64,000 nt of DNA from Spinacia oleracea (lineage: Eukaryota; Streptophyta; Magnoliopsida; Caryophyllales; Amaranthaceae): contig NC_079488.1 in assembly GCF_020520425.1 (NCBI RefSeq), positions 30,805,247-30,869,246 on the forward strand, in the 5' to 3' direction. Every line of letters starts with the position of its first letter. Position 1 is the first letter of the stretch. The notes below the pieces were generated by a model. That model was not told where the DNA came from, ran no database searches, and saw only the letters and a program-made list of their open reading frames with translations. Made by a program: the position numbers and the translations under genes. Shown here in pieces: positions 6,614 to 33,955 of this stretch.

Positions 6614-6957
6614 TGTAATACCCCGAAATTTTAAACTTGATAAATTAAACTTAATTATTTTTATCATTTTAAATCCTAATTTTAAACTTTAATATAATTA
6701 ACGAAATTTATTTGACTGGAAAAAAAAAGAATATATTAAAATTTAAATTAGATTTATTTTCAGATTTTGTAATTTAATTAGAAAAAAAAAAAGAAATTTT
6801 GATTTACATATTATTTTCGGATTTTAAGCCCAAATGGAGAAACTTATTTCAGAAATTTATTTAGAAAATTATTACTAAATGGACTTGTTCATCTAAGGAA
6901 GCCCAAATCAGTTTGTTCTTCCTTCCTCCTTCCCCATATCCCTAATTGCTATACCCA

Positions 6958-7047
6958 GGTACAGCCAAGATGGCTGTACCCCCTGCCCAAAACGACGCGC
7001 AGCGTCGTTTGGGTAAAATACCCAGGTACAGCCAACTTGGCTGTACC
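6958..7047 (+). repeat. Left subterminal palindrome module of the MULE
   Basis: Two 23-bp palindromes with arms GGTACAGCCA and TGGCTGTACC (6958-6980 and 7025-7047) flank a third palindrome around AACGACG...CGTCGTT (about 6990-7010). The module lies just upstream of the protease gene promoter. The same module in inverted order is at 33558-33632. It could be a transposase-binding site or an operator. Confidence 0.85.
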
Positions 7048-7143
7048 CCCTGCCATTGTTAGGCGCGTGAATCCCACGCGCGGGTAGTTAATTTTGAAAA
7101 AAAAAATGGCACGTGAGGGTAATAATTTCGCGCAGGAATGGCC

Positions 7144-7151
7144 TATAAATA
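7144..7151 (+). promoter_or_regulatory. Probable TATA box of the Ulp1-like gene
   Basis: TATAAATA lies about 260 bp before the chosen ATG. A leader rich in CTCTCT follows and has no in-frame upstream ATG that would fit the exon chain better. The palindrome module is 100-190 bp upstream. Confidence 0.6.
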
Positions 7152-7404: not shown

Positions 7405-10400
7405 ATGGATGTTCGTGACGAAATTGACATGAACAAGCTTCAAAATCCACCGAAAAGCAAAAAGTAAGTAATTACAATTGATTCTGATGTTTCGATTTTA
7501 TTTTCGAACTAAAATGAAATCTAATTTTGCTTATTTTCGTTCTATTTCAGAAAAACGAAGATGCCGAAAGAAAAAAAGGAAACGTATGTAATTTAATTTC
7601 AGATTTCCAACATGCAACTGTTTTATTACTTAAATATTTGTTTAATTCAGTTATTTTCAGTATTTTTCTTTATAATGTTCAAGTAATTTCATTATAATGG
7701 TCAATTTTTTGGTTTATGATGTTAGCAAACCCTAACTTCTGATTTTTTGGCTATAGGACTGGAAGATCTAGTGAAGAGCAAAAAATCGGGAATGCAAAGC
7801 AACTAGACATGAAGGAGTAAGTTATTTTAAGTTTTCGTAGATAAATTCATTTTAATTTACATATGTTCAATCAATTTTATGTTAATGTTCAATCGTTTTT
7901 AATTTAATGTTCATTTTCGTTGCGTGATGATTTAACCAAACCCTAACTATTGGTTTTTTGATCACAGAACTGGAAAATACGAAATTGAGAAGGAAATTGA
8001 AGCTGAAAAGCAAATAGACACATTCCAGTAAGTAATTTTTATGTTTTTGAATATCTATTTCTATTTAATTTGCGAATGTGCCGTTTTTGACATTTGATAC
8101 AATACAAATACAAATTAATGATACATTGTTCATATTCATAGAGATTTAACAATAATCTTATTGATGATTAAAATTTGGATTGGGAATGTCAATTAATTTA
8201 AATATTATTATAATAATGTAAATGTGATGAACTTTTGTCGAGTTTTTCTAATCTTATGTTAGACGTTCAATTTATGTGTAAAATGTTCATATTGTTTAAG
8301 CTAGATATTCATTTTGGTCCACTGAGTTTTGTTCATTCCTCTGTAAAATAAATTAAGTCTTTAGAACTCATGATAACTATCTTATGCAAAATGTTCAATT
8401 GATTATAGCAGAATATTCAATATCTTTTTGGAAAATGATCATATATTCCAAACTGGATATCCTTTTTGGTCTACTGAGATTTTCTTTAGGAATACTGAAT
8501 TATTTCGAATGTTATATATATAATTAAAATAATTTGAACATTTGTTCATTCATATGTCCAAAAACTAAATCCAGAAATCATGGTAACTGTCTGTCTCCAA
8601 AATGTTCAATATATTTTGATAAAATATTCATTTTCTTTTTATAAAATATTCAATATATTTTGATAGTTCATTTTCTTTTTATAAAATGTTCAATTTTTTT
8701 TCTGGAATATATTTTGTTACAGAGTTTTGTTTTGGAATATACTATGAATTATTTCTAGTATTATATTCATAATGGAAATGTTCTTTGTACTAATATTCAA
8801 TTTTTCTACAGTAAAATTTTAAATCTACACTCATCTGCGAAAAATGTTCAATTTATTTTGCTAAAATATTCAATTCCTTTTTATAAAATGTTCGTTTACT
8901 CTGATATACTAAGTTGGTTTAGAAATCTTCAATTATTTCAACTACTATATTCATAATTTCAATGTTTGAACTTTTGTTCATTTCTTCAGTCCTTTTTATT
9001 ATTAAAACTCATGATAACTGTTTTTATGTTAAATGTTCATTTTGTTTTCATAAAATATTCATTTCTTCAAACTGAATTTTGCTCTGGACACTCATTAGTT
9101 ATACATTTATAAAACCTAGAGAACAACCACAAAGGTTAATACTCAAATTTAAGCGAAGACCAACTAAATCCCAGCCAGAGGTTCAGAAAGTATTAAGGTA
9201 TAAGATAATATCAATTTTTTATTAAATTTGAATGATTTTTAATATTATATAATATAATGTGTGCATTAACATCATATTAATAAAAAATACAGTGAAGGAG
9301 ATGGGAAGGCATGTACAACTTCTGAGACAGAAGTTCAAAAACCATTGAGGTATAATATAATGTCCATTTTTTACTACATTATGCATGTAATATAAATGTT
9401 CTTTTTCTTAAAGTTATTTGTTCCATTGTGTATGGCTTAATATTCATTCATAAATTGAAAGTTTATCTCATCTGCGTTTATGAATTATGTTCAAAAAATT
9501 TCCTCCTTGTGTTCAAAGTTTTTATGAATTATGATCAAAAAATTTACTTATTATGTTTAAAGCTTCTCCTATATGTTCAAAGCTTTTCTCCATTGTTCGT
9601 TCAAATTTTTTAACCTTTATGTTCTAAGTTTTTAGTCATATGTTCAAAGCCTTTCTTTCTGTTTATATCTCAGTCAAACTATTTGGTTATAATATGTTCA
9701 AAGCTTTTCTCCATTTTGTTCAAAGTTTTTAACCTTTATGCTCAAAGTTTTTAGTCAAATGTTCAAATTTACCTATTATGTTTAAAACTTTTCTCCATTT
9801 TGTTCAAAGTTTATTACCTTTATGTTCAAAGTTTTTACCCTAATGTTCAAGTTTTTAGTCATGGGTTCAAATTTCACAGTATAATATAATGTCCATTTTT
9901 AGCTTTTTAAATAATTTTTTATTAATTTTATATAAAATGACTTGTACGTTTACACCTTACTATTCAAATTACAGTGAAGGAGATAAGAAATCTTCGTCAA
10001 AATCACAGCCTGAAGTTCAAAAAACATCAAGGTAAAAATTAATATGAATTTTCAATTTAGTTGAATCGTTCATAATTTTTATATAAAATAGCATGTATAT
10101 TAAAAATATATTATTCAAATAACAGTGAAGAAGATCAAGAAGAGTCTTCAAAATCTTTGGTACAAAGAAAGATTGCTACAAAAAATAGGTAGAATTTGGC
10201 ATTTTTTTACAATTCATTTTCTTCTGCATATTTGTTCATAATGGTTTCATTGTTTGTTCATTCATTTGGAATTGTTTGTTCTTTATTTTATATGGTTTAT
10301 TCTTTATTATTGAACGACTCTTTCTTTCTTCTTTATTTGTAACTTTATATATAAATGATATTTTACATACGTTTTCATATATATGATCACACATTTGTCG

Positions 10401-13400
10401 TTTTAATTTATTGAATTTTTTTTGTTCTTTGTTTATCAGGGGCAACAACTTACTGAAACAACTTTTAGCAAAGAGCATAAAGCAGAACAACAAAAAAAAG
10501 GCTGCACAAATGGTAGCTGCAGCTGCTGCTGCTGCAATGGCCAGCAAAGAAGCTGACAAAAGGATAGATACAGCTGCCGTTGCAGCACAAATAGAAGCTG
10601 AGAAAATGGCACCTGCAGCTGATGCAGAAGACAAAAGAGTCGCTCAGGAAAAGGCGTCTGCAGCTGAGAAAGAAGCCAAAAGAGTGGCTGAGGAAAAGGC
10701 ATCTGCAGCTGATGCAGAAGCGAAAAAACTGGATGAGGAGAAGGCATCTGCAGCTGATGCCCAAAGAGAAGCTGAGCTGAAAGAAGCTGAAAACAAGAGG
10801 ATCGAGGCTAATAAGAAGAAGGAAGAAGAAGATAAAGCTGAAGCAATGAAGAAGGATTTAGAGGAAAGAAAGAAAGAATATGAAGAAAAAATGAGCCAGC
10901 TTATGGCTAAAAACAACAAAGAGTTGATAGAGGAAGCGGAAAGGAAAGAAGCTGAGAGAAAGAAAAGAGAAGATGAGAGAAAGAAAAAAGAAGACGATGA
11001 TGCCACAAAAGCAATTGCCATGGTGGTTGAAAATGTAAATGCTTCAGAGAGTGAAGCTCAAACCATTGGTGGTAAAGGCACAAAAAGAGGAAAGAAGACA
11101 ACAGCTACCAAGAAGAACACCATTCTAAGTATTACTATGGATGAAGAACTACAAAAGAAGTTGCACAACATATCAGATTCATACAATCCGAGAAGAAGTA
11201 CAAGATCAATGGTGAAATTGCAACAAAATGTTGGTGCTGAAGTAGTTAGCAAAGAAGAATTTGAAGGCAAAGGTAACTATTTACATTGTTCAATCTTATT
11301 TCAATAAATATTCAAAATATATTATTATGTAAGTTGTACTTAGTATTTGTTAATAATGTAGATGTTTCTGGAGTTACTTCCAAAGTAACAAATACTCCAA
11401 AGAAAAGGAAAGCGGCTGAAAAAGAAGATGAGGATGAGCCTTTGAATGTTGAGATAATAAAAATAAAAAAACAAAAAGGTAAACATATTTACAAAAAAAC
11501 AGTGTTAAAAAATAATTTAAGATAATTGATAAAATGTTAATATGTTAAATACATTGTAATTTTTTTTACAGGAGTTGAAAAAAAAGCACCTGTTAAGGGA
11601 AGAATTCTTCCTCTTAGGAGTGCATTGAAAAGAAATAAGAAAAATGATATTGAAGAAGTGAAAGAAGAACAGAAAACAGGTATTACATTTAACATTGTTC
11701 AAAGTTTTTTCAAAGAACGTTCATTTGGTTATCATAAAATGTTATTTTTGTTTGGATAAAAATTCTTTCTGTTTTTATCTCACAGTTATTCAAACTATTT
11801 GGTTATATGTTCAAAGTTTTTCTCCATCATGTTCAAAAGTTTTCTATATTAAGTTCAAAGTTTTCTCCATTATATTCAAAGCTTTACTATTTCGTTCAAA
11901 GTTTTTGGGTAATATGTTCAAACATTTTTACTATTTTGTTCTGTTCACAGAACTTGCAAAAGTCAATGTTAAAGGAAAAAGGAAAATGAAAAAAAGAAAG
12001 GAAGAAGAAGAAGAGGTTCAAGAAGAAGAGGAGTTAGAGGGAAATGATGAAGAAGAGCAAGAAGAGGAGGAAGAACAAAATGAGGAAGAAGAGGAAGAAG
12101 AGGAAGAAGATGAGGAAAATGAGGAAGATGAAGAATGGGAAGAAGAAGAAGAAAAAGAACAAAACAAGATGCCAAAAGGTATATTTAGTATACTAAAATA
12201 TTAAACATTGTATTACATGTTTATCAAAACTTCTTAATTGTATGTTCTTCTCCAACAGAGAAAACAGTACCGGTGAAAGAGAGGTTGGTTCAGTTTGAAA
12301 AACAAAGACAAAAAATAGGTAAAATTAAAATTTATTTGTTCTCCATAAAATTAAAAATTCTACAATTGTTATTAAAACTTACTTATACGTGTTCCTTTTC
12401 CAGCATCAAAAAGAACAGCAGCAAAAGCAAACCTACCTGCTGAAAGAAAAACAAAAAGGAAAATAACTGATGAAGAATATGAAGTGAAGGAAGAAAATAT
12501 AGAAAAAGGTAAAATAAACTCTTCCTTTCAACAGTTCCATATGTAAGTATAATAATTGATGTTATTTAAAATGTTCATTTTGTTTATATAAAATGATCAA
12601 TTTTCTTAAAAAGAATGTTCAATAGTAAAACAAGTAATGTTTAATATATTTAAATAGAATGTTCATAATTACAATACATAATGTTCAAAATTTTGAAATA
12701 CAATATTCATTATTGAAATAATTAATGTTCTACAAAATTTTGAAATACAATATGCATCATTAATTTTTGGTTTTGTTAATCAGCTTTAATTGTGGAACGG
12801 GAGGTTTCCCCTTTGGCGATGATTACCAAAGAAGTTCCTGCAAAAAAGAAACCAAAGAAATCAATTGCTGTTTACAAGGAAAAAGTAGCAGAAGAAGAGG
12901 AAGAAAAAACTGGAGTTAGAGGAGGACATGGAAAATTCATCAGTTTCATTTCCATGATGAATGAACAGAAGAAGGAGGCCGTTCGGAATATCGGTCTAGG
13001 AGCATTGCTAGATTTCCAGCTACCTACTTCATCCCAACAATTTGTTACATGGCTATGTAACAACTTTGAGGAAAACAACCAATATCTTTATCTGCCGAAG
13101 AATGAGAAAATCCTGATAGAATTTGAGGACGTGAAAAAGATATATGGCCTTCCTAGCGGTGAAGTAGACATAGTTGAGGCAAAGTCTGACAAGGCTAGTG
13201 AAGAGTTTTCTGCATTCATGGCAAGGTAAATGATCTTAAATCTATACTTATATTTTCAATATATTATAGACTTCAAAAATCTAACTGCATTATGCATGTA
13301 CTACAAATGTTCTTTTTCTTAAAGTTATTTGTTCAATTGTGTATGGCTTAATATACATTCAGAATTTGAAAGTTTTACTACAATTATAATGAGAAAAAGT

Positions 13401-16400
13401 TTTTTCTGTGTTTCTCATAGAATTATTCATAGTTTTTCCTTCTTATGTTCAAAGTTTTTATCAATTATGTTCAAAAAATTTCCCTAATATGTTTAAAGCT
13501 TCTCCAATATGTTCAAACCTTTTCTCCATTATGTTCAAAGTTTTTTTCCTTTATGTTCAAAGTTTTTAGTCTTATGTTCAAAATATTTTCCTTAATTAAA
13601 TTTTGTTCATTAACAAAAACAGATGGAAGAAGACAGTAATACATGAAAAGTGGAAACCTAAATAAATTTTGTTCATATTTATTAAATTTTGTTTTTCTTA
13701 ATTAAATTTTGTTCATATGTCTATGCTTGTTCTTTTTCTATAACCCTGATTCATATAATTGTTCATAATTGTTCATAGTTGTTGTTGAGTTTGTTCTTTC
13801 TTTTTATATTGGTTGTTCTTTCTGTTTGGGAATGTTTATCTTAATTAAATTTTGCTCATTTAAATAAACAGTTGGAAAAAGATCTTTGGGAATAAGGTCC
13901 CATCAGTTCAGAAAATTTTAAAGTACTACAGTCAAGAAGACCAAATTGAGGCTGGACCGGATGCAAATTTCATTACAAGCTTCTTGGTGGTCACTGTCAA
14001 CACGTTGATCAAGAGCACGTTGTCAAACCAAGCATACTTCAAATTTTTGTTCTCAATGATGAATCATGAGCAGATCCGGAACTTGAATTGGTGCAAGTAT
14101 GTGTGGGAGACACTGCTCTCAACTACTGCACAGTATAAGAAAAACCTGAAACAAAAGGACAAAGCAACATTTTTCACAGGACCATTGCCGTTATTGACGG
14201 TATAACTTCATTTACACCTTCTAAATTGATGATTTTAATGTACTTGATCAATCTTAGAGATTTTCTAACACTTATACTTTGAATGTCAGATTTTCTATTT
14301 TGACAGAGTTCAAAGAATGAACTTTTTTCCTCCAAGACGAATTCCACTTGTGTCCTGCTGGACAAAGGAAATAGGACACAAACGGAATAAATTGGAGGAA
14401 AGTGGCTTTGGATTGGGGAAGGTGTTACCCAAAATCAATATTGAAGAAAAACAAACTCGCAAGGTATTATTAAATACATCAAATTCTAATAGATTAAATT
14501 TAATTCTTCTGCCAAATATAAATATGGGTAATATTAATTTTATGTTCCTTCCTTTAATATGTTAAATAATATTTTTAGAACATATATAAATAAATGCTCA
14601 TAACCCTTTGCTTAAATGTTCTTTATTTTTGCATATAATGTTCATACCTCTCTAAGACATATCATAACATAACATAATGAAGAATTTGTGCAATATATAA
14701 AGATAAAATGTTCAAACTTCTTTAGTTATTTATTCAAACTGTATCAATAAATGATAAAAAATAAGTGTTCAAGCCTATTTATTTATATATTGTATATGTG
14801 CACAAGTGTCATTCAGTATATATAGTTGTTCATAGTTCTACTTTTAAATGTTCAAACTGAAACACCTAAAAGTTTACTATTCCCTAATATATGTCAATGG
14901 GTTTTAAAACACAGGAGTTTATGGATGAGTTTGTCGGTATAATTCAAGCTGTTGGTGACAATTTGTCAAAGCTTTCTGATTCACTGAAGAAGGCGCAAGA
15001 ATTCTTCCCAGGAAATGAGTTGGTATCTAAAGTGGAAGAGTTCTTGTCAAAAATGGCAAAAGAACCATCATTAAGCCAAGATGAGTGGTCTGGTGACTTC
15101 ATTAAGGCTCTGTTGGAAAAAGAAAAGGAGTTGTTGGATGCAATTGAGCTGGAGAAAAACAAAGCAAAAAAGGATAAGAAGAGATATGAGTATGATATCA
15201 AGAATGCATTCGACTTGGGACTTTCACCATCACCGATAATAGATGATGACAAGTTGAAACGTGAGAAAGCTGGTACATCCACCTCTACGCCAAATTTGTC
15301 ACTTGAAGAAATAGATGAATCTTTGGCTTCTGCTATGCTGAATCTAAAACAAAGAAGGGAGGAAGAGAAAAAAGAAAATGAAATTGCAAAAGCTAAGAAA
15401 ATGATGCAAGCAGAATCAGAAGTGAGTGAACCAGCTTCAGAAAAACCAAAAACAACAGTGGAGGAGATTGTTGTACAAGAAGAGAAGATTGTGAGCTCGG
15501 ATGAAGCTACAGTGGAGCCTGAGTTGCATGTATCAGAAATGATGCCTGTAACTAATGTAATTGAAGAGGAGCCTGCACCAGAAGTGAGAAATGAAGAGGT
15601 TTCTGCACCACAAGTGATTGAGAAGAAGGTTACACCAGATGGGGTCGAGGAGCAGCCTGCAAAAAATAAGAAAAATGAAAGTGCTGAACCACAAGTGGTT
15701 GAGAACACGGTTGCACAACAAATGGTTGAGGAGCCAGCAGAACCTCATACTCCTACACAGTCGCAGGTGCAACAACCAGTGGAAGCTGAACTATCTGTTG
15801 GTGCAGAACAATCTTCTCTTCCTTCACCAAAAACTCCATTGAATGAAGTCTCAATATCAACATTAATTTCAAGCACAAAAACAGATTTGAAATTGGACGA
15901 AATTTTTGAAGACAAAGGAGAAAAAGAAGATGAAGGAGAAGGGTAAATTTTAACTGTATTAAAACTGAATTAGTATTTGTGAAACTTTGGTTATATTATG
16001 AAAACTATTTTAAAGACATAATAATGTTTTGGTTATTTAAAATGTCATAATAATATGTCATACTCTTCTAGTTTTTGTTCTATCCTTTTCAAACCTGTTA
16101 AATTTTTTTGGATCATTCTTTTTGAATGTTATGTTCTTTCTTTTTGTACCTTTTGTTCATTCTTTTTACTTTATATGTTCATACTCTTAATCTTATATGT
16201 TCATACTCTTAATCTTATATGTTCATTTTATAATTATGTTGATTTTTTGTTAAATTTTTGGTACTCTTAATCTTATATGTTCATATTAGTAATCTTATAT
16301 GTTCAATTTATAATTATGTTGATTTTTTGTTAAATTTTTTGTATATACAGAAATGAGAAAGGTGACAAAGGAAAAAGACCTCAAAGGATTCACAAACTAC

Positions 16401-17979
16401 CGGCTGCCTTCTCTTCTCCATATTTGGTCAAGTATCGAGACTTGTTCAAAAATCTGGACACAATGCATCAAAGCCTAGCAGATTATGTCTTAAGTGGTCA
16501 GGACAACAGGTATTTTCTTTAATTTCACGTAAAAATAATTTAAAATTTAAATTCTTATACTTCCTCCTAATTTACTTCCTGTTTGTAGTGAGGTTCTTTA
16601 TTTTGATGGATACAACTACATCAATAGAGAGGACATGAAAACACTGGTTGATGAAGTGGAAGTGGTTGACTGTGTGATTGATTCATGGTCAAAGTATCTA
16701 AATGCAAAGGGCCATAAAGATAAACTCTTCCTTTCAACAGTTCCATATGTAAGTATAATAATTGATGTTATTTAAAATGTTCATTTTGTTTATATAAAAT
16801 GATCAATTTTATTAAAAAGAATGTTCAATATTAAAACAAGTAATGTTTAATATATTTAAATAGAATGTTCATAATTACAATACATAATGTTCAAAATTTT
16901 GAAATACAATATTCATTATTGAAATAATTAATGTTCTACAAAATTAAGATAAAAATTACAAATGATTAAATTGAAATTTTCATTATCATTGTAACTAATT
17001 TTACATATATTTATAATTGAATGTTGATTATGTTTAAATGCAGCATATTATGTGCACAAACAAGGTGTGTCCAGCAGGATCCTCCTACGAAAAAAGGCTT
17101 GAGGATTTTAACAGAAGGGTTAACGAAGAACTGGTTAACTATAATTTCAAAAACATTCATCAATTTAAACAGGTAAACCTATATAACTACTAACCCATTC
17201 TTCAAACTTTAATGTTCATTTTAATGTTTGTAATTTGTTCATTGTTTTTAAGTTAAATAATTACCTCTTTTTCAGATATTCATCCCTGTTCTTGCTGCAA
17301 AACACTTCTATCTCCTAGTCATCAACCATTACAATGCAACTGTGGATGTAATTGACAACAGGCCTCTACCAAGAAATGTAAAATTTGAGGATAAATATGA
17401 GGGACACCCAGAAGTTGTGGTAAGAAATAAATCATTCATAAAATGTATATTTGAAACATCGTAGATAATTATCTTACATTTATGAACATAAATTCCAGTT
17501 GGATGCTTTTGCAAAATATATGGGCACATTTGGATATGAGGTAGAACCAATGCAAAAGTATGAAATGAATTTGGTCAAGATGAAATGGAGAAGCATGAAA
17601 GACTATACAAACTGCGGTGTGTATGTCATGAAGCACATGGAGACCTATACTGGTGATCCAGAACATGAATGGATATGTGACTTGAAGGCAAATGATGTAA
17701 GTTGAATTTTGTTCATTCTTCTTTTGTATTTTGTTCATTTATTTTTATTGTTTTGGTCTTTTCTGTTTTATTGTTCTGCCTGTTGAATTTCTTTTATATT
17801 CCTCAAATTTATAATTTAATATTTGGATTTTATAAAACATTTTTAATTTTTTTATTTTTATTTTTGATATACAGACAAATCAAATAAGGAAGCTTCGTGT
17901 CACTTTCTGTGGTCTCCTAATGCTTTCAAAGCAAAATGAAATGCATGAGTCAAACATAAATGAAGCATGGAGGAGTTAA
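7405..17979 (+). CDS. MULE-borne Ulp1-like cysteine protease (KAONASHI/VANC-like)
   Basis: I trace 24 exons: 7405-7463, 7551-7583, 7757-7816, 7968-8027, 9120-9197, 9293-9349, 9975-10031, 10126-10188, 10440-11272, 11362-11478, 11572-11679, 11951-12178, 12259-12318, 12404-12508, 12784-13225, 13872-14189, 14307-14463, 14915-15942, 16351-16509, 16589-16748, 17044-17172, 17276-17419, 17499-17696 and 17875-17979. They give about 1,585 residues without a stop. The exon 16/17 junction needs a weak donor (GTTATT) to hold frame. The N-terminal half is Ala/Glu/Lys-rich coiled coil plus an acidic run. The middle carries DVKKIYGLPSGE and FPPRRIPLVSCW, typical of plant DUF1985/Ulp1 transposon proteins. The C-terminus is a C48 peptidase with His in KHFYLLVIN, Asp in VDVIDNRP and Cys in TNCGVYVMKH. 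Such proteins may cleave SUMO or act as DNA-binding anti-silencers; which applies here is inference. Confidence 0.82.
9120..10188 (+). repeat. Run of duplicated same-phase small exons
   Basis: Exons 6-8 of the Ulp1-like gene (9293-9349, 9975-10031, 10126-10188) all start in the same phase with TGAAG(G/A)AGAT and encode a Ser-Glu-(Gly/Glu)-Asp start. Exons 5-7 share an EVQK ending. The exons around them also end in the same phase, so unit duplication leaves the frame open. The spacers hold TGTTCA arrays. Confidence 0.65.
12514..12739 (+). repeat. 226-bp direct repeat inside the Ulp1-like gene, copy 1
   Basis: This intron segment matches 16720-16945 without gaps and with about two or three differences. 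It begins with the last 29 bases of exon 20 (CTCTTCCTTTCAACAG and on) followed by that exon's intron. It therefore looks copied from 16.7 kb into the 12.5-kb intron. The exon remnant is not needed for the frame here. Confidence 0.9.
15161..15237 (+). repeat. 77-bp segment shared with the transposase tail exon
   Basis: It encodes KKDKKRYEYDIKNAFDLGLS in exon 18 of the Ulp1-like gene. It matches the minus-strand sequence of 19057-19133 at 70 of 77 positions by eye, where the transposase gene encodes [20 protein letters not shown]. The frame is kept in both. Confidence 0.85.
16720..16945 (+). repeat. 226-bp direct repeat inside the Ulp1-like gene, copy 2
   Basis: This is the probable source copy, because here the first 29 bases are functional exon 20 sequence followed by GTAAGT. 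The partner is 12514-12739. Confidence 0.9.
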
Positions 17980-21700: not shown

Positions 21701-24700
21701 AAAGTAAAGAGCCTCCTTACTAACCTTCCTTTGTGATCTTATCAAATGCCTCTTATTTAGAGGAACCATAGCATGATTATGAATCATATTATGATTCACA
21801 ACCGTCCATACACCATCTTTACCAATAGAAAACTGAACAAAAGCAGTACACCCAGTACGCGTATCCAATCTAGCATAAGACCTTGTTCTCTTCCTTTTTT
21901 CATCTTTAACCCCTTCACAGCTACACAAGAACCGTTTCATAGTATAAAATTCACTGTTTTGACGCTTCCGACCTTTCCCAACCCTAATACCAAAACCTTT
22001 ACTAAAAGCATATTCATTATACAAATCATAAGCTTCGTCTTCATTTTTAACTTCCTTCATCATTAACATAGATTCTGACTGTTATTCCAGTAGGAACACG
22101 CACAAGAGGGGGGGGGGGTGAATTGTAATTAGAACTTTGATAAAGTTTCTTGCGGAACTTAAGAAACAATCAAGAAACTGAGAATAGAGAAGACAATAAC
22201 AACAATTGTGAAAACTTCTTGATACTAATCAAGAAGAGAATTCTTTTATTATGGTAATGCCTCGATTACAATAATCTCTCCAACACAAGTTCCTCTCAAA
22301 CTCGTGTTCCTCACAGTAATCTACTTCGATTACAACTCCTTAACTTCTCTCTCTCAGACTTAAACTCTAAGTCTAAACAGGATAACTCTATCCTTACTAA
22401 TACAAAATATAATTCGTGTTTGGATAACTCTAGATATTAATAATGCTTTTGTGAGGATATAAGAAACTTAGGAACTTTGAATTAACTAGGACACAAACTG
22501 TTTTAGAAAATCTTAGACAAAACGTTTTTAGGAAAGCAAAAACTCTCAGAATGTTTGTGTACTTTAAACCAAAAACGATTTCCCTTTTATAGTGTTTATC
22601 CTTAGGGTTAGTTCCCTTCAAAACCTCAACTGCTAACTGCCAGCACTTTGGTCTCCACGTCCCTTGACTTGAGGAACAAGGGGAAGACCACTTCCCACGT
22701 TCAGCCATAAAGCAGTTGGTGATTTGACTCAATCAAACCCTAAAATATTTCTTTAAAACAGATTTTATTTATCTACAAAAACTTAGGAGAATTTTTAGGA
22801 AAATAAGTTTTGTTTAAATAAAATAAAACGTAAATCTATTTTATATTAAATATGCAAAACTTGTTTTTATTTATGAAAATGTTTTCCATAAAAATTGCTT
22901 CCAATAAAATAAATGGCCTAATTAAATCATAAGTTCCTTGAGTACTCTATATACCATTAGCATAATTAATATTTACATAAAATTCTAAGTACAGTGGACT
23001 ACCTAGACTTCATGTCTTCCCTTTGTCTGGAACTTGCAACTCAGAAGCTTCAGACGTTCCAGCCAAGGAACATTGATGAGTTCCTCTCTAGCTAACACAG
23101 GAACTCTTGGCTATGAGTCTGTAATAGTTCTTGTGGATATTCGGAACTCTTGATATGTAACTGTGTTGCTCCTCTTGTGACTTCAAACTGGAACAGATAC
23201 AACTTCCAGCTCTGAAACTCCATTGACTGTTCCAAGTGTACCTCAGGAACTTCACCAGTTTATTCAAGTTCCTATCCTAATAGAAACTTGGGCATATGCC
23301 TGTTCAAAGTCATTTAGCAACCATAATCAGGAAGTTTGCAATATGTGTGTGTCATCAACCAAAACTTAGGAACAACAATATTCCCCCTTTTTGGTGATGA
23401 CAACACTTGCAAACTTTTTACAAAGAGAGTAAGTACAAACAAACAAGAACTTATACAGACTATTGTGAAACAGAACATAAAAATTGAAAAACAAAAGAGA
23501 AAGATTAGAGAGAAGAAAGAGGAGCACCCTTGGCTTACAGAGAGATTCAGAGAGATTGATTCAGGAACTGGATTGAGTGTGCCTTGGAAGTTTGCACCCA
23601 TGACTTCCCCCTGTTGACATCAACAAAAAGCATAGCACGAAATATAGCCATTCCAAACACAGTGCCCCACGATCAACGTTTGGCAAGTTAAGCTAGCCTC
23701 AAAGTATTAAACTAACTCATACAATAAATTGAAAGCAAGCAGTAATGATCAAGACTAGAAAGCATAGATATGTGTAACCAAGCAAGTCAAAATAAGATGG
23801 AACAAATACCCAAGTTTAAAAATTATACAAACCGAAAGCAAATTAAAAAGATTGTTCCATGGCAAAAGATAAAAGAAACATGGGATAGGGTGATTTAGGC
23901 TTGGGATGGGGAACCAGAACCAGCAGTTTCTTCTATCACAGTCTCCTCAAAAGATTCCAGATTGTTGATCTTGGTGAGGATTGTGGCACGAGTTGCATTG
24001 GCTTGTTCTGAGTAGTGGTGAAGATCGTTTTGGAGAGTCTTGACACTTGTAACCAATGCACCTATGTGGGCCTGCATTGAGCTAATCCTGTGATCTGTTC
24101 CCTCCTGTAGTTCCACCAGACGAGCAACTGTTGCCTTTAGCTCCAATATCTGATCATCCTTTGTGTTCCAGGCACCCCCATGATCTTGAACATGTTCCTG
24201 TTCAGATGGAACACGACGAGCTTTGGACTTTTTGGAGGATCTGGGTGTCCTTTTTCTTGGCCTAACAGTTTCAGGCAGTTCCTCTTGATTCAGTGGAACA
24301 GCATCCTCCTCTATGGGCATCTCCTTGACATCCCCTTCCTCATTTATTTCCATGAAGACAGGCCCTCTTTTCTTGTTCTCCTTCATTGCTACCCTCATGC
24401 TCTTTCTTTTTCCTACACTCTTCCTGTTCCCTCGAGGTAAAGGGACCTCTATTTGTTCGAGTTCCTCCTCCTCCTCCACTTCTTCTTTAACTGCAATTCC
24501 TTCCTGATCTTCCTCATCTTGTTTCTCTTCCTTTCCAGCCCTAATGACTTTACCCTGAACCACTTTAAGATTTAATAGATGGAGCATTTCAAGTTGAAGG
24601 ATTTGGGTGGATTTTAAGGGAATCACAAAGTATGGGCTAAGGTCAACTGAGAAGCTTTTGAAGATTTCTGTAAGAAGGGAGGAGTATGGAATTTTGAATT

Positions 24701-27700
24701 TGGGGATACAGGTGGATAAGTGTTTGATCATGATTGCAGGAAAGTTTATGGGAATTTTCCTTTCAAGACAATACATGAGACATGCATCAAACAGACTTGC
24801 TATGTTCCTTTTCTGAGTTCGAGGAACTACACCTCTCCACACAATATTAAACAGTAATTTTTGAAGAGGTGAAAAGCAGTTGTGTGAGGTGGAGGTGGAT
24901 ACTTTAGAATCTCCTCCAATGGAACCAACTATATCTTTCTCATCTACATTATCTATGGTCACTGTGATTTGACCTTTGAGCCACATATCAAAACCCCTAT
25001 TGGGTGTACCAAACAGCTGTTCCAGATAAGAGGCATCAAATTCGATGCGAGTTCCATTCACTTTACTTGAGCATACATTATCAACACATGCAAAGTTCTT
25101 GCAGAATTCTTTCATAGCTTCAGGAATTAAGGGGGATTTGGCATAGGTACTCAACAGACTTACCCACTTTTGTTGTTCAAGGATTTCCATCAACTCTTTA
25201 AATTTCGTGGCTTCACACCATGTTGAGTTGATTGCGAACCCCTCGACCAGATTGTTTTCCTTTGCAGTGAGTTTCTTGGACCCTTTTACTTCCCCCTGAG
25301 TTTGAGCATTCTCCTCTGTTTCCTCGATGTTTTCACCAGAAGCTTCCACTCGTCGTTTTTTGGATTTTCTTGTGGAGGATCTAGGGTTTGAGATTGGGGA
25401 TTTCATTTCGATGTCAGTGTTGGTTTGTTCCCCCTGAGTGATTGCGAGCATTGGATTGTGGGATCGAAGAGGAATTGGCGATTGAATGGGTGAGGTATCC
25501 ATGGGAACAGGAGATGAAGGGTTTCTCTTTCGTTTGAGGGATGTGAGATCAGTGTTGTTGCTTGTGAGAACCATGGTTGAGGTTTTTTTTTTTTTTTTAT
25601 AGGTGGAAGGAGAGGTGATGTCAGTGGAGAAGGCGTGTGAGAGAGAGAAAGGGGGTTGCATGGATTGATTGTGGAAAGTGAAGAGTTTCTCCTATTTATT
25701 GCCAATGGAACCGTTCCAAACATTCTTTGAATATGGGTATTCGGTTTTTAATTAAAAAAAATAAATAGATAAAAATAAAAGGAAAATGAAAAAAATTGTG
25801 TTTGACTTTGACTTGCTTAATTTCGTATCTCTGACTTAACTAGTTTGAAAGGAACTGCTTACCTTGCTCATTTGAAGTGTGAGTGAATTTGCCACGATGG
25901 TAAGCTTCAACTATGTTTGCACACAAGATTTTGTGTTTGTAATAGTCTATATGTACCATGATTTTTGCTTTTGCCTTAGAGGAACTCCAATTTGGCAATT
26001 ACCTTAGCTTGATCATTCCGAGTTCCATTCTCATTTTCTCATGTTTCTCTCTGTTCAAAGGCTTAGTTAAAATATCAGCAATTTGGTGATCAGTTTGGCA
26101 AAAGTCTAATTTGATCAAACCTTTCTCAACATTATCTTTAAGGAAATGGTGTCTGATGTGGATGTGTTTGACTCGGGAATGATGAACCGGATCTTTTGAA
26201 ATACAAATAGCACTAGTGTTATCACAATAGATAGGAACACAATCATAGATAATACCAAAATCTCTTAGCTGTTGTTTTATCCATAGAATTTGTGAGCAAC
26301 AAGCTGCAGCAGCTACATACTCAGCTTCAGCTGTGGATAGAGCAACAGTATTCTGTTTCTTGGAACCCCAAGAAACCATGCATGGACCTAGGAACTGTAC
26401 CATACCTGATGTGCTTTTTCTATTCACTAAGTCACCTGCATAATCAGCATCTGCATATCCTCTTAGCTCGAAGGATCCACTTCTTGGATAGTAAAGGCAT
26501 AGGTCATCAGTTCCTTTGAGATATCTTAGTATTCTTTTCACCGCAGTTAGATGGGACTCCTTTGGATTTGATTGAAATCTTGCACATAGTCCTACACTAA
26601 AAGAAATGTCAGGTCTACTGGCTGTTAAATATAATAGAGATCCAATCATACCTCTGTATTTTGTTTGATTCACACTTTTCCCATTTGGATCAGTGTCTAA
26701 TCTGGTAGCAGTTCCCATGGGAGTGTGATTTACTTTGGCTGATTCTAGCTCATATTTCTTTAGGAGTTCCTTCACATACTTTTGTTGGTGTATCATGATT
26801 CCCTCCTCGGTTTGCTTGATTTGTAAACCAAGGAAGAAGTTGAGTTCCCCCATCATACTCATTTCAAATTCACTGCTCATCAAGCTTGCAAAATCTTTGC
26901 ACAAATTTTCATTAGTTGCTCCAAATAATATATCATCAACATAAATTTGAACTACTAACAAGTCAGTTCCTCTAGATTTTAAGAATAAGGTTTTGTCTAT
27001 TCTACCTCTTTTAAAATCATTTTGAAGGAGGAACTTTGATAATCTCTCGTACCAAGATCTAGGGGCTTGTTTTAGTCCATAGAGAGCCTTATCTAATTTG
27101 TAAATGTGATTTGGAAATTCGGGATTTTCAAATCCAGGGGGCTGTTCCACATAAACATCTTCCTCTAAGAAACCGTTTAAGAAAGCACATTTAACATCCA
27201 TTTGATAAAGTTTAAAACCCATGAAAGCAGCAAAAGCAATTAAGATTCTAATGGCTTCTAATCTAGCAACAGGTGCAAATGTTTCTTCAAAGTCAATGCC
27301 TTCCTGTTGATTATAACCTTTGACCACTAACCTTGCTTTGTTCCTTATGATTGTTGCATGTTCATCTTTCTTGTTCCGGAACACCCATTTTAGCCCTATC
27401 ACCTTCTGATGCTTTGGTTTGGGTTCCAAGTGCCATACCTTGTTTCTTTTGAATTCATTTAATTCTTCTTGCATGGCAATGATCCAGTCAGCATCTTCCA
27501 GAGCCTCAGTGTGATTTCTTGGCTCAAATATGGAGAGGAACGCGTGGAATGCGCAAAAGTTCCTTAGTTGTGACCTTGTCTGAGTTCCTTTTCTGATGTC
27601 ACTCACAATGAGTTCCATTGGGTGGGACTTTAGATGCTTCCAAGGTTTAGGTTGAAATTGAGCTACTGGTGTTGTGGCATTTTCGTCAGTTCCTTCTATG

Positions 27701-30700
27701 ACCTGAGTTCCCTGTTGGGGTTCCTCTGGTGTTGTTTCTGGATCTTCTTGGTTTTCTGCTTGTTCCTCTAGTACGGGAACTTCTTGATTTTGTTGAGCAG
27801 TTCCTCTTGCTGTGTGTTTGCTTATTTGGAACTCCTCATCATTTTCTGCAGCACGAGATAAACCAATCTCGAAAAATTCTTGTTCCTGTACTATGTCAGT
27901 TTTGTTAGATTCATCAAATATTATATGTACACTTTCCTCAACACACATAGATCTTTTGTTATAAACTCTATAAGCCTTGCTATTTAAGGCATATCCTAGG
28001 AACACTGCCTCGTCGCTTCTTTCATCAAACTTCCCCAAGTTCCTTTTTCCATTGTTGTGGACAAAACATTTGCTCCCAAAGGCTCTAAAGTAAGAGATGT
28101 TGGGTTTTATACCTTTTAGTAGCTCATAGGGGGTTTTGTTTAGGATTGCTCGAATCATAACTCTATTTATAATGTAACAAGCAGTATTGACTGCTTCAGC
28201 CCAGAAGTTCCTAGGCAAGGAACTGGCTATTAGCATGGTTCTTGCCATGTCCTCTAGGGTTCTATTTTTCCTCTCAACAACTCCATTTTGTTGTGGAGTT
28301 CTGGGAGCTGAGAAATTGTGGTCCATACCTTGTTCCTTGCAGTATTCATCGAATTTGTAGTTTTCAAATTCTGTTCCATGATCTGATCTTATATGGATCA
28401 GTTGGTGACCTGTGGTTTTCTGGATTTTCTTTGAAAATGTAACAAACTCATCAAACGTTTCATCCTTGCTTGTTAGAAATATGACCCAAGTAAAGCGAGA
28501 GTAATCATCAACAATAACTAATACATATTTTTTCCCACTTCTGCTTTGAATTCTCATTGGTCCACATAAGTCCATATGGATGAGTTCCAATGGTTTTGTG
28601 GTGCTTACCAATTTCTTAGATTTAAAGGAACTTCGGACATGCTTGCCTTTTGCACATGCATCACACACTTTATCAGTTAGGAACTTGATTGAGGGGAGTC
28701 CTCGAACCAGTTCCTTTGATCTTAGTTTGTCAAGCAGCGAGAAACTAGCATGTCCAAACCTCCTGTGCCATAGTAGGGAATTTTCTTCAAGGGCACTGAG
28801 GCAGGTTAGATTGTTCCTGGGAACTGTATTGAGATCCACAGAATATGTGTTCCCTTTACGAGTTCCTTCCAAAATAACCTTCCCAGTGTTATTGTTTATG
28901 ATTTGACAGTTTTCAGAAGTAAAACTTACAGAGTTTCCTTTGTCACAGAATTGAGAGATGCTTAGTAGACTGTGCATCAAACTCTCGACTAAAAATACAT
29001 TTTCAATGGCGTAGGAACTTGACCTTCCAACTTTTCCAATTCCAATAATTTCTCCTTTCATGTTGTCTCCAAAGGTCACAGTTCCTCCATTGTAGGCTTC
29101 TAGTGAGAGGAATTTAGATTTGTCTCCTGTCATGTGTTTGGAACACCCGCTGTCGAGATACCACGAGCTGTTCCCCTTCACTAGAATCTGTAAAGAGATC
29201 AAAGGTTAGTTACAGGAACTCGGGTTTCCTCGAGTTCCTTTTCAACTATAACTTCAGACTTCTTAACCCATTTTTGTTTTACATAATTTATGTTTCTTTG
29301 ATCCTGTTCCTTCATCTTGGAACACTCAGTACTTATGTGACTTCCACTTCCACATGAGAAGCAGACTTTTACACTAGGAAGATCCACATACTTCTTCTTA
29401 TGACTATTTTTATGGTTAAAGCCCAATCCTTCTGTTCTCTTAGATTGAGCATTCTCAATCCATTTGGGAGGAACTTTAGGTGGTTGTCTCTGTGCCCTGG
29501 CCATGGATAGTTCCCTTTCCAGTTTCTCTTTTTGTTCCTTTGTGGTGATCAGATCTTTGTTTAAATTTTCTAAGTCGATGTTAAAAATTCCCATGTTGAT
29601 TTCCAAGGATTTTGTAGGATCTAAACTTAAATTAAACATCTTATATTGACTGAGTTGAACTTGTAGAAGGATGTTTTCATTTCTAATTTTTTCGAATGAC
29701 TCATTAATAGAGGTATTTCTATCTAGTAATTCAAAGAACCTGCCTTGGACATCAGATCTAATATTGTTCAGATAATTTATGTGGTCTTTACTGAGTTCCA
29801 AGGCTCTATCACTTTGTGCTTTTAATATACTTAGCTTTTTGTAATCATCTAGAGTTTCTAGCAACAGTTCAATTAGTTTTGACTTTGAGAGACACTGAAG
29901 AGTGGAGGAACTTACTTCTTCTGATGGAACTTGATCAGTTCCTTCTGTTCTAGCCATAAGGCAGAGATTTGCAGTTTCTTCATTTGGTTGTTCCTCATCG
30001 TCTTCTGAGTCTGTTGCTTCGCCCCATGCAGCTATCATGGCCTTCTTGAAGTTTGGTCTGTTGAAGGTAGACTTGTTAAAGCGATCTTTGACCTGTTCCT
30101 TCCCTTTTCCTCTGGTCTTGTCGTTCTCCCACAGAGGGCATTCACGAATTTGGTGATCAGTTTCTCCACATTTGAAGCAACCTTGCTCAGTTTTGGAACT
30201 AGTGATTTTCTTGGCAAAGTTCCTTCCTTTCTGGTTTCCTGGTTTGAAGTTCCTATAGAGCTTTCTCATTCTTCTGACCAGCATGGCAGCCTCTTCTTCA
30301 TCTGGTTCAGATTCATCGAGTTCCTCAGCCTTTAGAGCAAGTCCTCGACTTCTTGAGCTCTCGGGAACAGCAGCTCCAAGATGCAGTTCGTGTGTCATCA
30401 AGGAACCAGCAAGTTGTTCAATGTTGAACTTGGTGAAGTCCTTGGTCTCAAACAGTGCAGTGACCTTTGTTCTCCAGCGATCATCTTGTGGCATGCTTCT
30501 TAGTATTTTTCTTACCTGTTCATCTGTGGGAATGATTCTACCAAGAGAAACTAATTCATTGGTTATGTTAGTAAATCTAGTGAACATTTCTTGAATAGTT
30601 TCTTTTGGAAGCATCTCAAATCTTTCATATTTAGACATCAAAAGGTCAATTTTGGAACGCTTAACTTCATTAGTTCCTTCGTGGGTTACTTGAAGTAGTT

Positions 30701-33395
30701 CCCAAATCTGTTTTGCGTTCTTGCACCCCATGACTCTGTTGTGTTCATGAGGTCCAAGCCCGCAATGCAAGATTTTTACAGCCATGGCATTCATCTCATA
30801 TTTATCAAAGTCTTCTTTAGAAAATTCAGACATTGGTTTAGGAACTACCTCGTTTTCAGCATTGGTCTTTGTTACCTCGAAGTCTCCAACTTCAATTACA
30901 CGCCAAACTTGGTAATTTTCAGCTTTGATGAATATCTCCATTCTATTCTTCCAGTATGAGTAGAACTTGCCATTGAACATAGGTGGCCTTTGTGTCGAGT
31001 AACCTTCTTCCAGTTTCTCTTGTGAGTTCATACTTTCAGGAACTTGACTCAAACAGGGTTTCCTGTGTTTTGGTGAGTACTGGCTCTGATACCAACTGTT
31101 ATTCCAGTAGGAACACGCACAAGAGGGGGGGGGGTGAATTGTAATTAGAACTTTGATAAAGTTTCTTGCGGAACTTAAGAAACAATCAAGAAACTGAGAA
31201 TAGAGAAGACAATAACAACAATTGTGAAAACTTCTTGATACTAATCAAGAAGAGAATTCTTTTATTATGGTAATGCCTCGATTACAATAATCTCTCCAAC
31301 ACAAGTTCCTCTCAAACTCGTGTTCCTCACAGTAATCTACTTCGATTACAACTCCTTAACTTCTCTCTCTCAGACTTAAACTCTAAGTCTAAACAGGATA
31401 ACTCTATCCTTACTAATACAAAATATAATTCGTGTTTGGATAACTCTAGATATTAATAATGCTTTTGTGAGGATATAAGAAACTTAGGAACTTTGAATTA
31501 ACTAGGACACAAACTGTTTTAGAAAATCTTAGACAAAACGTTTTTAGGAAAGCAAAAACTCTCAGAATGTTTGTGTACTTTAAACCAAAAACGATTTCCC
31601 TTTTATAGTGTTTATCCTTAGGGTTAGTTCCCTTCAAAACCTCAACTGCTAACTGCCAGCACTTTGGTCTCCACGTCCCTTGACTTGAGGAACAAGGGGA
31701 AGACCACTTCCCACGTTCAGCCATAAAGCAGTTGGTGATTTGACTCAATCAAACCCTAAAATATTTCTTTAAAACAGATTTTATTTATCTACAAAAACTT
31801 AGGAGAATTTTTAGGAAAATAAGTTTTGTTTAAATAAAATAAAACGTAAATCTATTTTATATTAAATATGCAAAACTTGTTTTTATTTATGAAAATGTTT
31901 TCCATAAAAATTGCTTCCAATAAAATAAATGGCCTAATTAAATCATAAGTTCCTTGAGTACTCTATATACCATTAGCATAATTAATATTTACATAAAATT
32001 CTAAGTACAGTGGACTACCTAGACTTCATGTCTTCCCTTTGTCTGGAACTTGCAACTCAGAAGCTTCAGACGTTCCAGCCAAGGAACATTGATGAGTTCC
32101 TCTCTAGCTAACACAGGAACTCTTGGCTATGAGTCTGTAATAGTTCTTGTGGATATTCGGAACTCTTGATATGTAACTGTGTTGCTCCTCTTGTGACTTC
32201 AAACTGGAACAGATACAACTTCCAGCTCTGAAACTCCATTGACTGTTCCAAGTGTACCTCAGGAACTTCACCAGTTTATTCAAGTTCCTATCCTAATAGA
32301 AACTTGGGCATATGCCTGTTCAAAGTCATTTAGCAACCATAATCAGGAAGTTTGCAATATGTGTGTGTCATCAACCAAAACTTAGGAACAACACTGACCC
32401 TTCAACAAAAACACTTACTTCCTTATTCACTGCGAAAGGAAGAAATGTTCAATGTTAAACTAGTGATTGTTCAATGTTAAAATAGTGAATGATCAATTTC
32501 AATAATAACTAACAATGGAAAATTGAAATGTTCAATATCCTTAAATAAAATATTCAATATTAAAATAGTAATGTTAAAAATAGAATGTCCATTGCTTAAT
32601 TAGGTGTTGTTCAATGTACTTAAATAAAATGGTAATTACGAACATAGGTAATATTCAAAATCATTAAATAAAATGTTCATTATAAATTATAAATAATGAT
32701 AAAATACTTGAATTAAATGTTCATTGTAACATAGGTAATGATCAATAACTCTTAATAGAAAGTTCAATATAATACAATACAATGTTCATTATCTAAATAA
32801 AAAATATTCAATATATTTTAATGCAATGTTCATTACTAATATACGTAACATTCAAAGTCATTCAATAAAATGTTCATTATTGTTGTAGACAATGTTCAAT
32901 TTCCTTGAACTGAATATTCATATATTTGTTAAGAATGTTATAACTAAACAATGAACAATATTTTCTTTTGGGACAGAACAATTCAAAAATTCATAACATA
33001 ATATGTATTTTATCAAAATATATAATGTTCATAAGATCTGAGGTAAAAATTCATTAACATTATATACATTGATAATAAATAAAATTATGAATAAAAATCG
33101 AACAAAAAATAACGTACAATTGCAAAAAAATAAGAAAATCTGCAGAAAACAAAAACAAAGAAACAAATCAAAATCGAAATATCCAGCGAAAACACGAAAA
33201 ATAACAAAATTCTAAACACATTTTATCCAAAATCAAAATATAAAATCGAAAACAATCAAAACCAAAAACATTGAAATCAAAACAAATAAATGAAAATAAT
33301 AAAAATATAAACTTACGTTCTGACATCAATGTACTTAAAATTCCAGAATTAGATTCGAAAAGAGCTTCAGAATTTTCCATAACTGCGAGATCCAT
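18747..33395 (-). CDS. FAR1-type MULE transposase, interrupted by Copia
   Basis: Minus-strand exons: 33317-33395, then one exon cut by the Copia (32394-32429 and 21006-22079), 19800-20805, 19602-19691, 19437-19499 and 18747-19355. Phases agree at every junction and give about 983 residues in the uninterrupted gene. Exon 2 starts with a FAR1/WRKY-GCM1 zinc-binding region ([17 protein letters not shown], then CSCEG, GCTAF and HNH). The MULE catalytic domain follows ([20 protein letters not shown], then [20 protein letters not shown]). Exon 3 has the SWIM zinc finger ([21 protein letters not shown] spacing C-x-C...C-x-H). The last exon has tandem ATKAPS repeats and a 77-bp segment shared with the neighbouring protease gene. 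With a 10-kb insertion in an exon, this copy should not make active transposase. Confidence 0.88.
19140..19275 (-). repeat. 18-bp tandem repeats coding [12 protein letters not shown]
   Basis: About seven 18-bp units (plus-strand unit GGTGCTTTAGTAGCCGAT) lie in the last transposase exon and keep frame. Two variants, ATKAPS and VNKAPS, partly alternate, suggesting expansion of a two-unit block. Confidence 0.85.
22080..23377 (-). repeat. 3' LTR of the Sirevirus-type Copia
   Basis: It begins TGTTATTCC (plus strand) and ends AGGAACAACA. A TATA box (TATAAAAGG on the minus strand) lies near 22584-22592. It shares a dense GGAAC/GTTCC content with the coding part. Confidence 0.93.
23895..25661 (-). 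CDS. Extra ORF of the Copia, 588 residues, downstream of pol
   Basis: This single open frame lies between pol and the 3' LTR on the sense strand of the element. The N-terminus is basic and Ser/Pro-rich with nuclear-localisation-like KRKR and KSKKRR. Residues about 140-350 look like the domain annotated as putative plant transposon protein (Transposase_32 type), with the [10 protein letters not shown]...VNGTRIEFD...LFGTPNRGF pattern. Acidic and basic tracts follow, and the last 80 residues form a probable coiled coil ([15 protein letters not shown] onward). I see no signal peptide or membrane segment, so env is a positional label only. It carries the same GGAAC/GTTCC enrichment as gag and pol, implying long residence in the element. 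The family assignment is from memory. Confidence 0.75.
   Translation of the reverse strand: MQPPFSLSHAFSTDITSPSTYKKKKKTSTMVLTSNNTDLTSLKRKRNPSSPVPMDTSPIQSPIPLRSHNPMLAITQGEQTNTDIEMKSPISNPRSSTRKSKKRRVEASGENIEETEENAQTQGEVKGSKKLTAKENNLVEGFAINSTWCEATKFKELMEILEQQKWVSLLSTYAKSPLIPEAMKEFCKNFACVDNVCSSKVNGTRIEFDASYLEQLFGTPNRGFDMWLKGQITVTIDNVDEKDIVGSIGGDSKVSTSTSHNCFSPLQKLLFNIVWRGVVPRTQKRNIASLFDACLMYCLERKIPINFPAIMIKHLSTCIPKFKIPYSSLLTEIFKSFSVDLSPYFVIPLKSTQILQLEMLHLLNLKVVQGKVIRAGKEEKQDEEDQEGIAVKEEVEEEEELEQIEVPLPRGNRKSVGKRKSMRVAMKENKKRGPVFMEINEEGDVKEMPIEEDAVPLNQEELPETVRPRKRTPRSSKKSKARRVPSEQEHVQDHGGAWNTKDDQILELKATVARLVELQEGTDHRISSMQAHIGALVTSVKTLQNDLHHYSEQANATRATILTKINNLESFEETVIEETAGSGSPSQA
25999..29202 (-). 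CDS. Copia pol: protease, integrase, RT, RNase H
   Basis: The order protease, integrase, reverse transcriptase, RNase H is the Ty1/copia order. Visible motifs are the protease [10 protein letters not shown], the integrase zinc finger (HRRFGHAS to CDACAKGKH), the catalytic core around [14 protein letters not shown] and [11 protein letters not shown], the RT motif [10 protein letters not shown] and the RNase [12 protein letters not shown] and DNTSAI. About 1,067 residues are open. The core around [16 protein letters not shown] resembles the SIRE/Maximus lineage. Gag precedes it in an adjoining frame. Confidence 0.95.
29199..31052 (-). CDS. Copia gag with two zinc knuckles
   Basis: This 617-residue frame begins with a UBN2-like gag region ([19 protein letters not shown]) after a short leader. 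It has CCHC knuckles in [15 protein letters not shown] and, near the C-terminus, [15 protein letters not shown], with a coiled-coil-like stretch between them. Large gag proteins are usual for Sireviruses. It lies directly downstream of the 5' LTR and primer site. Confidence 0.93.
31097..32393 (-). repeat. 5' LTR of the Sirevirus-type Copia
   Basis: This copy is near-identical to 22080-23377 and is followed on the minus strand by the initiator-Met primer site. Its outer end abuts the host duplication CTGAC at 32394-32398, inside transposase exon 2. Confidence 0.93.
32430..33316 (-). other. First intron of the transposase gene, with a TGTTCA array
   Basis: The intron runs from a GTAAGT donor after 33317 to a TTTCGCAG acceptor before 32429. 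Between about 32440 and 33020 I count some 13 plus-strand TGTTCA and many near-matches (TGATCA, ATTCA). The motif lies on the strand opposite to transcription. Confidence 0.8.
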
Positions 33396-33557
33396 GGAAA
33401 CAGAGGAGAGAGAAAATAGGAGAGAAAAAATCGAAATAAACCCTAAGAACAAGATATATCGCAACTTGAAGAAGAAGAAACAAAAAATTAAAGAGTTGTC
33501 TAACTTAGGAAACTCAGGAAGGGGATAAAAATACGCTGAACGACGTCGTTTTCGGGG

Positions 33558-33632
33558 GGGTACAGCCAGCGCTGGCTGTACCCGCATCACACGACGTCGT
33601 TTGATTAGGGGTACAGCCAGCTTGGCTGTACC
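33558..33632 (-). repeat. Right subterminal palindrome module of the MULE
   Basis: A 26-bp perfect palindrome (33558-33583, arms GGGTACAGCCAGC) and a 23-bp one (33610-33632, arms GGTACAGCCA) flank an ACGACGTCGT palindrome (33591-33600). It mirrors the left module and lies 160-240 bp upstream of the transposase start codon. Confidence 0.88.
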
Positions 33633-33955
33633 CGAGGGCAGCCAAAAAATTGCGTCCTTCCCCTTCACGCAACACTGACTATGAAAGACAAACAACTTTA
33701 CAGATGTCTCAAGCAAAACTTCAATTCCAGTAATTGAAGCCACGATTCATTCCACTCCTCCTTAGTCAACAATTGATCTCACTTACTCTTTACATTTGTC
33801 ACCCAAATACTTGCAATGTGAGCTGATTTCTCACGACAATAAACATCATTCCATCTCTATAAATAGACCCATAATTAATCCATGAAATTCCAGAATCAAA
33901 CCTACTTCCAATTTCAATGTTCATAAACCAAAAACCATGAGAATTAATCATCTTA

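Follow-up and report, generated by a model that had tools for sequence, protein, structure and literature searches.

A FAR1-type MULE of Spinacia oleracea with a candidate VANC-like, self-addressed anti-silencing system

In a 64,000-nucleotide stretch of Spinacia oleracea DNA (hereafter the window), we identified a FAR1-type MULE that probably carries a VANC-like, self-addressed anti-silencing system, a reading to which we give a probability of roughly two-thirds. In this element and its relatives, words of the form (T/A)GAACA, which read TGTTCA or TGTTCTT on the opposite strand, are dense in non-coding DNA, are set in a two-helical-turn phase and are better kept than their surroundings, and the word splits with the transposase tree. 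Because this layout matches that published for VANC21 and VANC6, the protein encoded by the second gene of the element may, by analogy, bind the words and keep its own family unsilenced. In such a mechanism, adjacent words on the same helix face would be bound cooperatively by the protein, acting singly or as an oligomer, and dense arrays would draw it in sufficient amounts to remove or prevent DNA methylation at the promoters and introns of the element.

The element, its two genes and its word

The element, which we assign to family F1, has 16.4 kb of DNA excluding the LTR element nested within it. The limits given in the initial annotation proved exact, as they are flanked by a 9-bp target duplication. 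The ends are short palindromes, without long inverted repeats. The main features of the window are as follows.

6927-6935, no strand: target site duplication, left copy, 9-bp TCCTTCCCC (from sequence)
6936-33654, plus strand: whole MULE, family F1 (from the target duplication and the gene and repeat maps)
6958-7049, no strand: left end, two terminal palindromes GGTACAGCCA(n3)TGGCTGTACC (from sequence)
7405-17976, plus strand: VANC-like gene with some 18 coding blocks, of which three have guessed limits (from tblastn of P0121/P0122, a splice model for the 3' two thirds, and Pfam)
17276-17702, plus strand: exons encoding His, Asp and Cys of the C48 triad, at positions invariant in three aligned families
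19788-33380, minus strand: transposase gene, with exon 1 at 33380-33318, exon 2 at 22078-21005 (FAR1, MULE) and exon 3 from 20807 (SWIM)
22109-32393, minus strand: nested Copia-like LTR element inside the first intron of the transposase gene (exact repeat match; the ends may be a few bases off)
33559-33632, no strand: right end, two terminal palindromes GGTACAGCCA(n3-4)TGGCTGTACC (from sequence)
33655-33663, no strand: target site duplication, right copy, 9-bp TCCTTCCCC (from sequence)

The transposase contains FAR1 (70.1 and 68.9 bits, cut-off 28.1), MULE and SWIM domains. In a MULE survey (PMC6446971), VANDAL MULEs are listed with SWIM and CCHC, and FAR1 is listed for the Jittery group and parts of other groups. 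The presence of FAR1 therefore leads us to replace the earlier label "VANDAL-type": judged by domain content only, the element is a FAR1-type MULE set apart from VANDAL. The nested LTR element has identical 1,269-bp repeats, which indicates that it is recent, and it lies outside the word system. It contains polyprotein frames as well as a 598-aa open frame (23898-25691) with a PF20167 Transposase_32 match above the cut-off.

In tblastn, the second gene corresponds block by block to two spinach proteins, P0121 (1,074 aa; 28 member sequences) and P0122 (1,480 aa; tandem peptide repeats can be seen in it), and our own splice model follows P0121 over most of its length, with one internal exon missing. 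Both proteins bear the UniRef name "Ubiquitin-like protease family profile domain". The initial annotation had described the partner of the transposase as a DUF1985/Ulp1-like protein, and it is the Ulp1-like part of this description that stands. The C-terminal part of the protein matches Peptidase_C48 in all three families at E values up to 1 (best 2e-6), and the His-Asp-Cys positions of the triad are intact in F1 as well as invariant across the three aligned families. The C48 score is barely above the cut-off of 20.7 in P0121 of F1 (20.9 bits) and falls below it in P0122 (15.8) and P0123 (16.8); at E 1, C48 was not found in P0124 or in the Ipomoea relatives P0128 and P0130. The nearest solved chain is SENP7 (E 1.6e-4). 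DUF1985 is at best weakly indicated, reaching 14.4 bits in a single exon against a cut-off of 35.1, and DUF287 was likewise under threshold (13.6 bits against 21). The N-terminal part has a weak match to the plant mobile domain in two of the three families, which in F3 scores 22.6 bits, below the cut-off of 34.9. Two proteins of Ipomoea triloba are distant relatives, sharing 26% identity with the query across 40% and 27% of its length. Structure prediction for P0121 from 11 sequences gave a pLDDT of 32. Between the two genes, on the minus strand, there is also an open frame of peptide repeats (18750-19355), one part of which repeats a segment of the VANC-like gene in inverted orientation (15161-15237 versus 19057-19133).

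The claim that the non-coding DNA of this MULE is saturated with TGTTCA was borne out by our counts. Across 6936-33654 there are 110 TGTTCA and 10 TGAACA. The element's own non-coding DNA (9,651 bp) holds 98 TGTTCA against 4 reverse complements, compared to 2 against 3 in its coding DNA (6,782 bp), 10 against 3 in the nested LTR element (10,285 bp), and 10 against 10, i.e., no excess, in the flanks of the window (37,282 bp). This partition uses exon limits from tblastn, with guessed block limits at 11361-11460, 11640-11684 and 12252-12522. As previously described, the larger exons (10440-11272 and 14915-15942) contain no TGTTCA. The exclusion of words from exons might reflect the constraint that coding imposes on them. 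TGTTCA is the top over-represented 6-mer of F1 non-coding DNA, with 97 occurrences within segments against 7.0 expected (z 33.9). In a slightly larger set of 10,620 bp, which still includes 969 bp of the LTR element and has 99 words, 200 dinucleotide shuffles gave a mean of 7.1 and a maximum of 19. Individual stretches hold the following word counts.

7462-9111, plus strand: non-coding stretch, 14 TGTTCA
9348-10440, plus strand: non-coding stretch, 12 TGTTCA, with degenerate 22-bp tandem arrays
13226-13871, plus strand: intron, 12 TGTTCA
17977-19787, plus strand: intergenic stretch, 16 TGTTCA
20808-21004, plus strand: transposase intron, 4 TGTTCA, antisense to the transposase gene
32394-33317, plus strand: remainder of the first transposase intron beyond the LTR element, 11 TGTTCA

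In F1, a single word orientation thus runs across both oppositely transcribed genes and the intergenic DNA, and the same is true of F2. A separate observation concerns the right flank, where a tandem array of CGGAAATATT-like units occupies 61384-61626. The word CGGAAA/ATCGGA ranks high in two other spinach loci (L044 and L047) and, as TTTCCG, in a third (L045), so this array may represent a separate dispersed repeat family.

Phasing, divergence and conservation of the word

The words also have a regular spacing, which the initial annotation had left unmentioned. Of the 97 distances between neighbouring words in F1 non-coding DNA, 27 are exactly 22 bp and 9 are 43-45 bp, whereas random placement (2,000 trials) gave a mean of 0.7 and a maximum of 5 distances of 22 bp. 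Genome-wide, there are 5,481 pairs of TGTTCA at 22 bp against 436 for the reversed pattern, but pairs at 17 bp show no excess (203 versus 187 reversed). The enrichment of 22-bp but not 17-bp pairs indicates that the two-turn phase is special, rather than a consequence of mere word frequency. The genome-wide pairs include arrays outside F1-F3; the one such locus that we read, L051, is without terminal palindromes. At positions 4000-4500 of L051, where palindromic ends are absent, eight TGAACA are clustered within 500 bp, some of them in 22-bp units. Sasaki et al. (2022, EMBO J, on eudicot antisilencing) reportedly found that the specificity of VANC proteins is determined by the sequence of the word, by its density and by its helical periodicity. 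A helical periodicity is present in all three spinach families, with neighbour spacing at 22 bp in F1 (27 of 109), 21 bp in F2 (38 of 94) and 21-23 bp in F3, and the word distances of F1-F3 have their best coherence at 10.6-10.85 bp.

A genome search with transposase exon 2 returned at least 123 matches, and we judged 11 elements for their words using flanking DNA of 10 kb for six and at least 20 kb for five. Seven of the 11 carry TGAACA/TGTTCA, namely two of F1 (including that of the window), two of F2 (transposase identity to F1 of 65-66%), and three more (64%, 71% and 72%), of which the 71% element also holds 11 AGAACA. The remaining four carry AGAACA/TGTTCT, namely F3 (55% transposase identity) and three more (57%, 58% and 53%). 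F3 has 87 AAGAACA and 96 TGTTCTT, compared to 3 and 10 of the F1 word and its reverse. The signal in the three additional elements is modest (AGAACA/TGTTCT 14/3, 13/13 and 26/9), and in the 14/3 and 13/13 elements other words outrank AGAACA. The genome thus holds a second family with the same word at 21 bp and a third family with TGTTCTT, C48 being matched in all three. Unlike in F1 and F2, the word in F3 (L042/L043) lies as TGTTCTT on the sense strand of each gene, so that its strand changes along the element, a pattern that would not be expected if all words simply shared one orientation.

The word splits along the transposase tree, for which nine database proteins were chosen out of 120 listed. 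All seven elements with TGAACA fall in one clade with the quinoa proteins P0005 and P0007 (support 0.995), and the four AGAACA elements group with beet P0012 and quinoa P0017 (support 0.74). If the quinoa elements carry the words, the word split appears to be older than the split between spinach and quinoa.

The co-variation of transposase and word between families would also be expected if the words were binding sites of the transposase itself, through its FAR1 domain, which is a DNA-binding domain, or aids to a synaptic complex, like the subterminal repeats of other DNA transposons. As the transposase and the second protein are linked in one element, co-variation cannot tell the two apart. 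However, the words extend across introns and spacers over 16 kb instead of being confined to the ends, and the terminal palindrome provides a separate end signal, and we thus consider a transposase role unlikely. Somewhat less probable still is that the arrays are sites of a host transcription or chromatin factor exploited by the element. The phasing on one helix face would fit any cooperative binder, including such a factor, but a word that varies among related families of one host along the transposase tree is unexpected for it.

The words are also better kept than the surrounding non-coding DNA. A blastn comparison of F1 non-coding DNA (1e-3, dust on) yielded no match in F2 and a single match in F3, compared to 121 in another F1 copy; F1 and F2 are nonetheless full of the identical word. 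At one unit's distance from a word, where a second word was not required, the word positions match in 62% of cases in F1 and 65% in F2, whereas the spacer positions match in 45% and 43%, respectively. Over 28 aligned F1 loci, divergence was 0.050 in word columns and 0.082 in neighbouring non-coding columns (resampling P 0.005), with coding columns lower than word columns (0.029). These loci are four-kilobase pieces, and among them is the window copy (L006), the upstream part of which is mostly LTR element. With the window copy removed, word columns diverged by 0.047 against 0.069 in their neighbours (P 0.035), and with seven rows under 0.93 identity removed, by 0.014 against 0.033 (P 0.041). 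As the copies share common ancestry, the P values should be taken as indicative. One F1-like copy, L025 (70% identical to the consensus), holds 4 TGAACA and 10 TGTTCA, opposite to the other copies.

Neutral tandem duplication of a 22-bp unit that happens to include the word is, in our estimate, improbable. Degenerate tandem arrays of about 22 bp do exist, the spacers of adjacent units are more alike than those of random pairs (57% over 27 pairs versus 39%), and the constraint test is only moderate. Yet the words are kept better than the spacers both between units and between copies, the unit length differs between F1 and F2 while the word is kept without a non-coding match, and coding DNA is nearly without the word. 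An RNA-level signal, e.g., in splicing, is the least probable of the alternatives, for while many words are intronic and those of F3 follow the sense strand of each gene, the words of F1 and F2 keep one orientation across oppositely transcribed genes and intergenic DNA, and non-coding relatives retain the arrays. Neutral duplication and an RNA-level role were both set aside, given that the words outlast the spacers and that one orientation spans opposite genes.

Short non-coding relatives

Two short MULE relatives with palindromes of the F1 kind are present in another spinach locus (L050:1340-3640 and L050:7030-8700), and inspection of their open frames revealed no recognisable gene. The left end of F1 aligns with each of the two ends of the first element, and by eye the apparent 9-bp target duplications agree at 8 of 9 bases in the first element and 9 of 9 in the second. 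TGTTCA and TGTTCTT, the words of F1 and F3, are interleaved on one strand in these elements (40 + 29 and 29 + 19), with zero reverse copies of either. With both words counted together, 34 of 68 and 18 of 47 neighbour distances are 22 bp; between neighbours of unlike words, exactly 22 bp separates 16 of 28 and 4 of 14. Unlike in F1 and F2, the word distances in these elements are without coherence at 10-11 bp. A third short non-coding relative adjoins an F2 copy.

The form of the palindrome borne by the short relatives is present at 436 genomic places (control 0), suggestive of a large family. Among the first 100 of the 436 places there are 24 neighbour pairs within 4 kb, of which 20 are 1.08-1.67 kb apart. 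Words were counted in the closely read short elements, and we infer the word content of the remaining palindrome places from these. The short relatives, which keep little but ends and words, may ride on the protein of the autonomous elements. We tentatively suggest, at less than even odds, that they are composite addresses, perhaps recruiting two anti-silencing proteins, and form a non-autonomous family that parasitises or titrates two autonomous systems.

Likeness to known anti-silencing systems and significance

The closest published parallel is that of VANC21 and VANC6, encoded by Arabidopsis VANDAL21 and VANDAL6. According to Hosaka et al. (2017; PMC5735166), VANC21 binds copies of a short word that all face the same way within non-coding tandem repeats, and both systems have dense same-orientation arrays of short words, often in tandem, in introns, spacers and ends, as is the case here. 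The paper likewise describes related families with different words, as in spinach, and a second element-encoded protein whose variable regions contain repeated peptide motifs (PMC5735166). There are also differences. The words given there are YAGTATTAY; AGTTGTCC/AGTTGTAC, compared to TGTTCA/TGTTCTT in spinach, and the VANCs are marked in that paper with DUF1985 and DUF287, whereas here C48 is accompanied by a weak plant mobile domain. In addition, the spinach transposase carries FAR1.

An Ulp1-like domain in the second gene of a MULE has a parallel in the Ulp1-bearing VANC genes termed KIU (Kaonashi). A 2026 review (PMC13317346) reports that these genes act on their own kind, recognising the words of their own kind only, and describes the role of the Ulp1 domain as unknown. 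KIU are reported there in non-TIR MULEs/Vandals, whereas the spinach element has a FAR1-bearing transposase and terminal palindromes. By transposase domains, the element resembles the Jittery group (group 36), for which the MULE survey gives an N-terminal FAR1, a MULE core and SWIM (PMC6446971). This likeness is by domains only: the dicot and monocot Jittery members have one ORF in the table of that survey, whereas here there is a second large gene in an anti-silencing-like layout.

The earlier interpretation is thus upheld in part: a VANC-like, family-specific recognition word is supported, but the label "VANDAL-type" is not. Phased words, identical or slightly different between related families, lie beside an Ulp1-like gene and show no excess in the flanks of the window, and the second protein is their putative binder, by analogy with the Arabidopsis systems. 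Our literature search found no paper on such a system in spinach, nor any on a VANC-like layout with a FAR1 transposase, on 21-22-bp phasing, or on dual-word relatives, although prior coverage by Sasaki et al. (2022) is possible.

Overall, VANC systems are a known example of transposons that use a sequence address to relieve their own kind of silencing. In spinach, a crop distant from Arabidopsis, a VANC-like layout is combined with a transposase bearing FAR1, and the word changes slightly between families and is clearly spaced at two turns. The spinach families provide a natural series on how proteins read words and on how word and reader change together, and the dual-word non-coding relatives would show clearly whether words by themselves suffice as a target. 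If the composite-address reading and a word split predating that of spinach and quinoa are both true, these elements would represent an address code of two words that has long persisted outside the VANDAL clade.
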